Assembly: GCA_018303805.1 (NCBI GenBank)
Contig: JAGVXL010000001.1
Location: 369,528 to 433,527, forward strand
Origin: Candidatus Pacearchaeota archaeon
Lineage (GTDB): Archaea; Nanobdellota; Nanobdellia; Pacearchaeales; DTIR01
Reading direction: 5' to 3'
DNA: 64,000 bases
Part shown: positions 38,138 to 55,842 of the stretch, one piece after another
Layout: each line of letters starts with the position of its first letter
How positions within the stretch are numbered: position 1 is the stretch's first letter
Notes under the pieces: model-generated
What the model was told of the DNA's origin: nothing
What the model saw: the letters and a program-made list of their open reading frames with translations, nothing else
Databases searched by the model: none
Program-made: the position numbers and the translations under genes

Positions 38138-38179
38138 AAAAATTTCCAGCCCTTTAAATTACTTATGGATGATAAGAAA
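38138..38179. repeat. 42-bp perfect direct repeat, copy 1 (contains flippase TATA-like promoter)
   Basis: aaaaatttccagccctttaaattacttatggatgataagaaa, identical at 40027-40068. Confidence 0.95.
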
Positions 38180-40026: not shown

Positions 40027-40068
40027 AAAAATTTCCAGCCCTTTAAATTACTTATGGATGATAAGAAA
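40027..40068. repeat. 42-bp perfect direct repeat, copy 2
   Basis: Identical to 38138-38179. Confidence 0.95.
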
Positions 40069-45504: not shown

Positions 45505-45530
45505 AATCTTCTTGGAATCAGAAAATCTTT

Positions 45531-45635
45531 AAAAACCTTTCCGCTAAAACCGAAGGTTTTAGGGGTATAGGAAATCAGGGGAAAAATCCATCTGATGATG
45601 GAGGCAACCTGATTTCCTTTATTGAAAAGGTTTTT
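45531..45635 (-). other. Three-way-junction structured element, copy A
   Basis: Outer helix 45531-45542/45624-45635; hairpin 1 45569-45576/45611-45618 with inner CCATC/GATGG; hairpin 2 45544-45551/45555-45562; linker ATACCC (minus). Confidence 0.75.
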
Positions 45636-45695
45636 AAATTAGAGTCGAGAATATTTCAAAGGGAAAGCAATAATGGACTATTTGCTTTCTTATTT

Positions 45696-45899
45696 GCGCC
45701 GGTGGTCCAATGGCTAAGAGTTCTTAAAATGAACTAGCAAACTTCAGCCTTCCATAAGCCTTCTTTTCTTAGCAAAGGAAAGCAAAGCTTTCCTGTGCCC
45801 CGAAAAGCACAGCTTTTCGCGGAAAGAAAAGAACCCTTGGGAAGAAAAAGGACTATAAGAGGAAAGCTGATTATCTGGGTTCGAGTCCCAGCCGGCGCA
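45696..45899 (+). tRNA. tRNA-Gly(TCC) with two introns (45719-45740 and 45755-45864)
   Basis: Spliced 72-nt cloverleaf GCGCCGG-TG-GTC CAATGGCTAA GAC-T-TCAGC CTTCCAA GCTGA-TTAT-CTGGG TTCGAGT CCCAG-CCGGCGC-A; both introns give 3-4-3 BHB geometry. Confidence 0.85.
45763..45831 (+). other. Three-way-junction structured element, copy C, inside the long tRNA-Gly intron
   Basis: CTTTTCTT/AAGAAAAG outer helix; AGGAAAGC-AAA-GCTTTCCT; GTGCCC linker; CGAAAAGC-ACA-GCTTTTCG; CGG. Confidence 0.75.
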
Positions 45900-49980: not shown

Positions 49981-50055
49981 CGTCCCTGGCAGGATTTGAA
50001 CCTGCAACCTACAGCTTAGGGGGCTGCCGCGCTATCCAAGTTGCGCCACAGGGAC
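49981..50055 (-). tRNA. tRNA-Arg(CCT)
   Basis: GTCCCTG-TG-GCGC AACTTGGATA GCGC-G-GCAGC CCCCTAA GCTGT-AGGTT-GCAGG TTCAAAT CCTGC-CAGGGAC-G. Confidence 0.8.
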
Positions 50056-51027
50056 ATTATTCTTCAACCATGATTGATACTTTAAAAAATGTTTGGGATT
50101 GCTTGAGCCTATCTCTCTCATCCATTTTGTAACTTGTATGCTGCCTTTTAAAATCAATTCATATTCTCTAAATCTAACCTTAAAGTTATTAGCTAGAAGT
50201 TGTTTATTTAACTGAGCCAGCAAAAATGGCGATTTCATTGATATTGTAATAATGGGGTAAGGATTTCCAGAGGGAGTTTTATCTAAATAAAAAGATCCAT
50301 CGGTATCAAAAATTCCCCTTATAACATACTTAATTTTATTCCAATCATTAGCAAGGCTATCTTTTATTCTCAGATTTACTTTTTTGCCTATAGGGAATTC
50401 TAATTCTTTATTCATAAAAAGAATTAATTGTTTATGATAGCACAATATTTCCATCCCTTTACAGTCATTCTTATACTTAATTGCAACTTTTTTATTAAAC
50501 AATTTTTTAATAATCTCTTTCAAAAATAGTAAATAGGCTTTGTCTAATTCGGAATGACCGCTTATACCAATCAGCCAAATTCTCTTTTTATAGGCATAAG
50601 ACAAAGAACTTAACCATCCATCCCCTAATAAAGCTCCATAAAATTCTAAAAATAAGGGGTCTTCTATATCTATTCTGAGATTATTTTTTGCTTTTTCTTC
50701 CCTGATTAATGCACTAATCATAGCTCCTTTTAATTGTCTTTTCTTAATCTCTTTGATACCATATTTTTGAACTAATACTCTATAAGTTTCTTGCCCTCCT
50801 TTAATCTGCCCCCAGTTATCTGGTCTTTCATCAATTATTTCTAAATTGAGATTTGATGGTATAATCTCCCGGGGGACATATCTTTTAGGGTTATGTAACC
50901 ACTTGTCTAATGTTGAAAAAGGAATACCTAACTTTTGGGATAATTGGCTTAATGTTTCTACTTTGTTTTTTTGTTTTAAATAACCAAACAATCTCATTCT
51001 CGAAGTTTTTGATAATAAGATTCTCAT
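50032..51027 (-). CDS. LAGLIDADG homing endonuclease with N-terminal HTH
   Basis: EFYGALLGDGWLS and IRGIFDTDGSFYL motifs; HTH LSQLSQKLGIPFSTLDKWL; C-terminus VPVAQLG* read from tRNA-Arg. Confidence 0.88.
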   Translation of the reverse strand: MRILLSKTSRMRLFGYLKQKNKVETLSQLSQKLGIPFSTLDKWLHNPKRYVPREIIPSNLNLEIIDERPDNWGQIKGGQETYRVLVQKYGIKEIKKRQLKGAMISALIREEKAKNNLRIDIEDPLFLEFYGALLGDGWLSSLSYAYKKRIWLIGISGHSELDKAYLLFLKEIIKKLFNKKVAIKYKNDCKGMEILCYHKQLILFMNKELEFPIGKKVNLRIKDSLANDWNKIKYVIRGIFDTDGSFYLDKTPSGNPYPIITISMKSPFLLAQLNKQLLANNFKVRFREYELILKGSIQVTKWMREIGSSNPKHFLKYQSWLKNNVPVAQLG

Positions 51028-51272: not shown

Positions 51273-51872
51273 TCATTTCTTTTTCCCAACAGAGGAAATC
51301 CCGTGATTCTCACTTCGGTGAGCCTTGCCTGATTTCCTATGCCCTGAAAATCTCCAGATTTTTGCGGAAAAAGAAAACCTTTTTTTCTTTTTCTGTTCAG
51401 GCTGCCTTGATTTAAGGAACAAAACTTTTATGCCGTATGCCTGCGAGGTTTTTGCCTGCACCAAATCTGCTGTTATTATTGTTGCATGGTTTTTTATTGC
51501 AATCTCCCTTATCAATGCGTCAATCTCCCCTGATTTTGCGAATTTAATCTGGTGCTCATTAGGCCTCAGCCCTTCAAAATAAACTGAAAATTTGAATTGT
51601 TTTTTTAGCTGATGAAGCCCTGCAACTTCCTCCAGTCCCTTAAACCCCGCCTCATTTCCCTTGTTTGCAAGATTTTCAAGTTCGGCCATGACTGCATTTG
51701 GTATAACTAATTTGCCTTTCAAGCCTTTTTTTATGAGCCTTCTGACAAACTGGTTTACAGCTATGCTTGTGTCAATCACATATGTCTGCTCTTGAGTGCT
51801 CATCTGCCTGTTGAGGCTTCTTCTTGCTCTAATCTTGATTCTCTGGCTAATTCCTTGTTTTTTTCTTATCAT
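51273..51872 (-). CDS. PIN domain protein, C-terminal tail encoded by structured element B
   Basis: TYVIDTSIAVNQFV, VMAELENLA, SGEIDALIREIAIKNHATIITADLVQA. Confidence 0.8.
   Translation of the reverse strand: MIRKKQGISQRIKIRARRSLNRQMSTQEQTYVIDTSIAVNQFVRRLIKKGLKGKLVIPNAVMAELENLANKGNEAGFKGLEEVAGLHQLKKQFKFSVYFEGLRPNEHQIKFAKSGEIDALIREIAIKNHATIITADLVQAKTSQAYGIKVLFLKSRQPEQKKKKRFSFSAKIWRFSGHRKSGKAHRSENHGISSVGKKK
51276..51376 (+). other. Three-way-junction structured element, copy B
   Basis: TTTCTTTTTCC/GGAAAAAGAAA outer helix; AGGAAATC/GATTTCCT with CTCAC-TTCG-GTGAG; ATGCCC linker; TGAAAATC-TCCA-GATTTTTG; CGG. Confidence 0.75.
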
Positions 51873-55059: not shown

Positions 55060-55842
55060 TTATAACACCTTTGCTATCTTCTTGTCCAGTTCTTTCAAGT
55101 GTTTCTCTATAATCCTGCATATCCCTGTGAAAATCTCTCTCACTGAAAGTTGCCCAAATGATTCTATGACAAAAACAAAATCTTCCTTGCTTGGCTTAAT
55201 GCTAATAGCATTCTTGCCTTTCTTATTGCAGGCATCAACACAAGCATTGCATAAATCGCAAGAGTTTATATCAGAAACAGAAACTTCCTTTCCTTGGAAG
55301 GAAAGTAAGTGCAATGGGCAGGCATCAACACAAGCATTGCATAAATCGCATTCTTTAGAGAAGTCTATTTGTGCCAGAGGCCTGAAGTAAACTAGTGCTG
55401 GAGAAAATTTAGAATGTTCTTTGCCGATACCTATCCTTGCATAAGCATTTAATTCCAACTCCTGGCCTTTTGTGAGTATAAGCAAGGGGGTTTTTTTGTA
55501 GACTATTATATCTTTCCCCTTAATATCTGATGCATAAACAGTACGGGGGCCTTCTGCTTTAAGTTTTAAAACTGATGTACATTTACTGCATCCTTTTCCT
55601 TTACAACTGCATTCATCCCTAGATAGAATGCCTTTTTCTGTTTTTAATGTCAATAAACCCAATCTATGCGCAATGATCTCATCAAACAATGCAGAATCAT
55701 TCTTGATAAACTCTACCTCATCTATAGCCAATGTAGGGACTTCCTGTGCTGTTCTTCTCAGAGAATTAGCGAGATTTGTATCTATCCCCTTTATTAAGTA
55801 GGTTGCTTTATCTTTCTCTTCATTCAAAAGTTTGATGTCCAT
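55060..55842 (-). CDS. rpoD: DNA-directed RNA polymerase subunit D with ferredoxin-like domain
   Basis: NSLRRTAQEVPTLAIDEVEF; two CDLCNACVDAC motifs. Confidence 0.95.
   Translation of the reverse strand: MDIKLLNEEKDKATYLIKGIDTNLANSLRRTAQEVPTLAIDEVEFIKNDSALFDEIIAHRLGLLTLKTEKGILSRDECSCKGKGCSKCTSVLKLKAEGPRTVYASDIKGKDIIVYKKTPLLILTKGQELELNAYARIGIGKEHSKFSPALVYFRPLAQIDFSKECDLCNACVDACPLHLLSFQGKEVSVSDINSCDLCNACVDACNKKGKNAISIKPSKEDFVFVIESFGQLSVREIFTGICRIIEKHLKELDKKIAKVL
55228..55260. repeat. 33-bp perfect direct repeat within rpoD, copy 1
   Basis: gcaggcatcaacacaagcattgcataaatcgca. Confidence 0.92.
55318..55350. repeat. 33-bp perfect direct repeat within rpoD, copy 2
   Basis: Identical to 55228-55260. 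Confidence 0.92.

Follow-up and report, generated by a model that had tools for sequence, protein, structure and literature searches.

A pair of short adjacent hairpins that recurs in the genome of this archaeon is better explained as a mobile palindromic repeat that targets loops than as a conserved regulatory RNA. We think it probable that the pair is a non-coding mobile element that inserts precisely into the loops of existing hairpins. Comparisons among sites and copies show insertion, with its boundaries and its position in a loop, as well as nesting, inversion of modules and dispersal within and between lineages. The target stem and the two inserted hairpins then fold together as a three-way junction.

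Copies in the window and anatomy of the unit

The stretch of DNA analyzed (the window, 64,000 nucleotides) covers positions 369,528-433,527 of a single-contig host genome of 575,132 bases, an assembly scored 77% complete. Archaeal markers are matched (uS9_arch, archaeal Spt5 and archaeal-type SecF), and several tRNA genes carry introns; the size of the genome and its relatives suggest a DPANN archaeon. Three copies of the element lie in the window and, including their outer arms, span 45528-45638 (A, minus strand), 51276-51376 (B, plus) and 45761-45833 (C, plus). Their hosts are those named in the preliminary description of this DNA: copy A lies 5' of secF, copy C in an intron of tRNA-Gly(UCC), and copy B in the coding sequence of a PIN-domain gene, at its C-terminal end. 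The features are listed below, where G001 is a genome of the same family as the host.

45528-45540 (-): copy A target hairpin, 3' arm (outer helix), found without the unit in G001
45541-45621 (-): copy A inserted unit, 81 nt, two hairpins with module Z in the hairpin 1 loop; boundaries from the orthologous G001 site
45577-45610 (-): module Z in the loop of copy A hairpin 1; 31/34 identity to the reverse complement of the copy I insert
45624-45638 (-): copy A target hairpin, 5' arm (outer helix), found without the unit in G001
45696-45899 (+): tRNA-Gly(UCC) gene with intron, host of copy C; assigned by eye and by orthology to the G001 tRNA-Gly(tcc) beside secF
45761-45770 (+): copy C intron hairpin (target), 5' arm
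45773-45822 (+): copy C inserted unit, 50 nt
45824-45833 (+): copy C intron hairpin (target), 3' arm
51273-51872 (-): PIN-domain ORF interrupted in frame by copy B, likely start 51803; matches PF01850 and PRK13764, relatives 75-77% identical
51276-51284 (+): copy B target inverted repeat, 5' arm, pairing with 51368-51376
51290-51367 (+): copy B inserted unit, 78 nt, equal to 26 codons of the opposite-strand gene; in frame, with orthologues in G001, G005 and G009 that do not have it
51301-51330 (+): module Y in the loop of copy B hairpin 1; the genome has this module at nine places, in either hairpin and in either orientation
51368-51376 (+): copy B target inverted repeat, 3' arm, pairing with 51276-51284

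The unit is composed of two adjacent imperfect palindromes and, if neither loop is long, measures about 50 nt. Hairpin 1 has the form YAR-AGGAAAnC-loop-GnTTTCCT-RTR and is followed by hairpin 2, CCC-nnAAAAnC-loop-GnTTTTnn-CGG; in inverted orientation the two resemble each other only loosely. Each carries a mismatch near its base (R.R in hairpin 1, C.C or C.U in hairpin 2), and in hairpin 1 of genomes G009 and G010 that position is occupied by a bulged T. The insertion point is approximately RR^AR, often within a TAGAA loop. Target duplication is absent at the sites of copies D and A, where the boundary is ambiguous by about 1 nt.

Several other features of this region were recorded. The tRNA-Gly(UCC) gene has an apparent second short intron in its D arm (45720-45741, GTTCTTAAAATGAACTAGCAAA), an unusual position, and a similar stretch forms an apparent second short D-arm intron in the tRNA-Val beside copy E (L015:1371-1470). 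The program ARAGORN mis-assigns the tRNA-Gly(UCC) gene because it has two introns. About 250 nt from copy B lies a free-standing LAGLIDADG-like ORF (50032-51027, minus strand; PF14528) with a helix-turn-helix-like start, which overlaps the 5' side of tRNA-Arg(CCU). The window also holds exact direct repeats of 42 nt (38138-38179 and 40027-40068) and 33 nt (55228-55260 and 55318-55350).

Family size and distribution

A pattern search with the 3' half of the element found five copies in the host genome; copy D lies between secE and spt5, and copy E beside tRNA-Val on the opposite strand. A covariance model (R1) built from these five copies, with a short calibration and hence rough E-values, found 23 distinct loci in the 575-kb host genome at E < 1e-3, most of them outside the training set (for example copies F, 3.1e-18; G, 7.1e-16; and H, 1.6e-13). 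The three copies first described stand, but a family of three does not. Five of the 23 loci (C, F, G, I and L) are in tRNA introns and the others lie outside them; most of these remaining copies are intergenic, and copy B is inside a coding sequence.

Among the 91 genomes of the order that were searched, G001 yielded 20 matches at E < 1e-3. Per genome, as many as 12 were found in families f2 to f6, each with a sequence flavour of its own, and most genomes of the large family f8 have none. Several matches in G001 and G005 are located at contig ends, as repeats tend to be. The proposed covariance search has thus turned up further copies both in the host and across the order, and the suggestion of a dispersed, structure-conserved, mobile element is borne out by the 23 loci, by relatives in other families of the order, and by the empty sites described below. 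No Rfam 15 family was matched at any copy tested, at gathering or relaxed threshold, in agreement with the earlier remark that no named family was recognized. A scan of viral contigs for the element returned 0 matches, and a scan of a genome contig collection with one conserved string returned nine bacterial contigs, all unrelated, which is roughly what chance would give; records near the host may be absent from that collection.

Class-wide matches at E < 1e-6 were not counted as members, and those inspected resemble other double hairpins. Separately, some genomes of the class (L081, which is G009:C31:60300-63300, and L096 and L100) contain runs of adjacent AT-rich hairpins of the AAATC..GATTT type, which are like the unit in plan and not closely so in sequence; perhaps they belong to a wider hairpin-repeat phenomenon.

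Folding and covariation

Copies A, B and C do fold as the three-way junctions initially reported, with minimum free energy z-scores of -7.7, -5.2 and -5.3, respectively, and none of 200 shuffles equally stable. Covariation was judged by pair-count tests against shuffles. In the five-copy alignment, 93.7% of cells pair; shuffles reach 85.3 +/- 1.6%, and slid partners no more than 58%. Two-sided changes occur at 8 pairs (0/500 shuffles). For the two inner hairpins alone, 98.1% of cells are paired and the covariation score is 0.271 versus 0.086 (0/500). The covariations reported for hairpins 1 and 2 are real.

Stable folds and two-sided changes in the inner hairpins are what would be expected of a structured functional RNA family, such as a leader, a processing signal or a small RNA, in which selection on the RNA keeps the junction, including its outer helix. 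Furthermore, the intron copies are co-oriented with their tRNA in 8 of the 8 cases checked. This orientation count is not independent, however, since copies F, G, I and L sit on one scaffold. An attempt to separate selection on RNA from selection on DNA by counting G-U and A-C pairs was uninformative because one repeated module dominates the counts. What argues against a functional RNA is that the hosts are unrelated and the positions sense or antisense, that the outer stem occurs without the unit, that one copy is inserted in frame into a coding gene on the opposite strand, and that the loops contain inverted modules. We consider a functional RNA family very improbable. A narrower version, in which copy A is a riboswitch or leader, is rejected because the sites of the copies are unrelated and the orthologous site is without the unit.

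Empty sites identify the outer helix as the target

Direct comparison of the flanks at filled sites with those at empty ones shows that the outer helix is not part of the element: it is the target, a hairpin already there before insertion, and the unit sits in its loop. First, the scaffold of copy D reads GAGCTCTCTTCTTTAG, then 50 nt, then AAAAGAAGAGACTTCGGAGAGAAGAAACTAA, and an empty paralogous scaffold elsewhere in the host genome (L116, at 258,022, minus strand) has nothing between TTTAG and AAAAG. The two sites are identical over 16 nt on the left and 31 nt on the right (47 in total), and exactly the 50 nt are missing from the empty one. The spacer before spt5 in several relatives contains neither the copy D scaffold nor the unit.

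Second, the gene order tRNA-Gly(UCC)-secF is kept in several families, and the orthologous site of copy A in G001 is a bare hairpin, AAAAACCTTTTTCAAAAAGGTTTTTAAA; copy A with its 81-nt unit removed reads AAAAACCTTTTCAAAAAGGTTTTTAAA. Taken by itself, this site could possibly reflect precise loss of a unit in G001 instead of gain in copy A.

Third, copy B is an antisense, in-frame insertion of 78 nt close to the C-terminal end of the PIN gene; the protein there reads KKKKRFSFS, 26 further residues, and GKKK*. Relatives without the 26 residues end in KKKKFLWFKKK* (G001), KKKKFFFFKFKKRN* (G005) and KKKRFIFFKRKKGNRQ* (G009). The PIN gene is short (~180 aa) in the host and in these three genomes; G007 and G010 have it joined to an ATPase part (~540 aa).

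Fourth, the tRNA-Gly(UCC) gene beside secF is intronless in G003, G004, G005, G009 and, by eye, G012. Its intron is 17 nt long in G011 and 46 nt long, without the hairpin pair, in G006; the pair is present in the intron of G000 and G001.

A permutation test across 24 copies gave a consistent result. With the unit removed, each flank pairs best with its own partner (diagonal mean 7.17 versus 5.21 off the diagonal; 0/50000 permutations). The test is conservative for copies F, G and L because their stem is further out than the allowed offset, and the flank palindrome is weak or absent in copies K, R and S. The genomes compared include none of the host genus, so that recent movement is not seen.

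The preliminary description had noted an outer helix that differs in every copy and yet remains paired. The pairing holds, but the helix belongs to the target palindrome instead of the element, and its sequence varies between copies because the targets differ. The proposal of a single three-way-junction RNA with a covarying outer helix consequently gives way to that of a hairpin pair set into an earlier hairpin at the insertion site.

Modules nest within the unit

The loops of the unit themselves carry inserts, so that hairpins are in some cases stacked several layers deep. Module Y, of 30 nt, is present at nine genomic places, in the first-hairpin loop of copies B, K, R and W and in the second-hairpin loop of copies G, I, J, L and O, and it is inverted in K and R (27/30 after reverse complementation). 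Likewise, module Z lies in copy A (hairpin 1) and, as the reverse complement, in copy I. This nesting of inner modules within loops, together with their inversion, points to a palindrome that is mobile at the DNA level. Copies K and M, at two unrelated sites, share a second whole unit inside the linker of the first, which indicates that composites are copied too.

tRNA introns as hosts

The tRNA hosts were read by eye from the anticodon loop as Cys(GCA) for copy F, Arg(UCU) for G, Ser(UGA) for I and Glu(CUC) for L; ARAGORN agrees for I and assigns other identities to the hosts of C, F, G and L because introns confuse it. Unit-bearing tRNA introns are also found in G001 (Gly), G020 (Arg) and G010. 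An intron-like scaffold is itself a repeat, present both within tRNA introns and between genes (L116, L115, L117, L013 and L015). It consists of a pyrimidine arm, a TAGAA loop and a purine arm, followed by CTTYGG and another purine arm like the first; either purine arm could pair with the pyrimidine arm, in competition with the other.

The repeats might therefore have spread as tRNA introns, possibly via spliced RNA, with the intergenic copies being displaced introns. The five intron copies in the host and those in G001, G020 and G010 fit such a route, the intergenic sites D, E and L116 share the 3' tail of the introns, and intron transposition is known in Thermoproteales (PMC4090602). On the other hand, matching scaffolds L115, L116 and L117 have no hairpin pair, copies A and B have the pair and no intron tail, and neither the host nor G001 has a reverse transcriptase match. 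The first two of these observations mean that the pair moves separately from the scaffold, and that intron transposition alone is insufficient. We judge this route unlikely as the overall explanation. Within the preferred reading of a mobile, loop-targeting hairpin pair, the shared scaffolds of F, G, I and L mean that part of the spread may be intron copying.

A possible mechanism of insertion

The unit sits in hairpins of tRNA introns and of intergenic DNA and, in one case, in an inverted repeat at a coding end. Further modules (Y and Z) occupy the loops of the element's own hairpins, and its linker can accept a second unit. The substrate may be the tip of a single-stranded or cruciform DNA hairpin, as could form during replication, and a putative recombinase acting in trans would do the joining.

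Such an enzyme might belong to the Y1 (HUH) transposases, of either TnpA-REP or IS200/IS605 type, and the repeat would then be a REP/BIME-like element. The conserved mismatch or bulge near the hairpin base, the inverted pairs, and insertion without target duplication would all suit this enzyme, and Y1 genes are present in the element-bearing relatives G009, G010 and G020. However, no Y1/HUH match was found in the host (in its 77%-complete assembly) or in G001, G002, G004 and G005, and only one of 12 Y1 neighbourhoods in relatives holds a clear element-like double hairpin (L120, E 2.6e-7). We regard mobilization by a Y1 enzyme as decidedly unlikely. A search for RVT_1, which is common in the order, gave no match in the host or G001.

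For the mobile hairpin pair, we tentatively propose a more specific scheme, in which DNA hairpin tips would serve as both cargo and target, yielding nested hairpins, the recombinase would lie outside the Y1/HUH and reverse-transcriptase routes, and tRNA introns would be a main refuge.

Implications

To our knowledge, clean empty sites are uncommon for hairpin elements; those described here directly show hairpins entering hairpin loops. Complex RNA-like structures can thereby arise without selection on RNA, and covariation-based RNA discovery calls for caution, since a palindrome that served as the target looks like an outer helix with covariation. The element is also a source of archaeal tRNA intron growth, and it makes the search for its mobilizing enzyme tractable.

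Comparison with known systems

The open-access literature searched contains no prior description of this family; subscription journals were scarcely covered. REP/BIME elements, with their TnpA-REP enzymes, occur in inverted pairs as imperfect palindromes that are mismatched close to the base (PMC8266576, PMC2817692). The archaeal palindromes are likewise imperfect, repeated intergenically, often in inverted pairs, and mismatched near the base, but their host has no Y1 transposase match, no GTAG-type tag was seen, and insertion is into hairpin loops. Some insertion sequences, such as IS1397, also target palindromes, namely those of REP (PMC1525189), whereas what is inserted in the archaeon is a non-coding pair of hairpins, ~50 nt in length. 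Rickettsia palindromic elements are selfish and lie in frame in protein genes (described in PMC10969869), as copy B does; B is the one clear in-frame case here, the rest being intergenic or in tRNA introns, and the archaeal elements measure about 50-130 nt.

In Thermoproteales, different tRNA genes of one genome carry closely similar introns as a result of intron transposition (PMC4090602). Such introns in different host tRNA genes are seen here as well, although the archaeal hairpin pair is also found elsewhere than in tRNAs and can be separated from the intron scaffold. MITEs differ in that the D and A sites have no target duplication and the hairpins are only loosely alike when inverted, and the lack of an RVT_1 match in the host and G001 sets the element apart from retroelements.

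Nearest in kind are the double-hairpin elements of mitochondria (PMC2800124) and the nested palindromes of Volvox (PMC2670323). The former (DHE/RHE) are described from fungal and sponge mitochondria as short adjacent hairpins that are dispersed and presumed mobile, with no known enzyme (PMC2800124; Paquin et al. 2000, cited there), and they are situated mostly in intergenic regions or variable parts of RNA genes (PMC2800124). The archaeal element shares the plan of two adjacent hairpins, dispersed and mobile. It differs in residing on an archaeal chromosome, in a sequence that is unrelated as far as compared, in having tRNA introns as a main site, and in empty sites that place the insertion in a hairpin loop. 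In Volvox organelle DNA, palindromes lie within palindromes, and composites occur at several places, intergenic and intronic (PMC2670323). Nested palindromes and recurring composites at intergenic and intronic sites are found in the archaeon too, where, unlike in Volvox, the unit is a fixed pair of different imperfect hairpins and its filled and empty orthologous sites can be set side by side.
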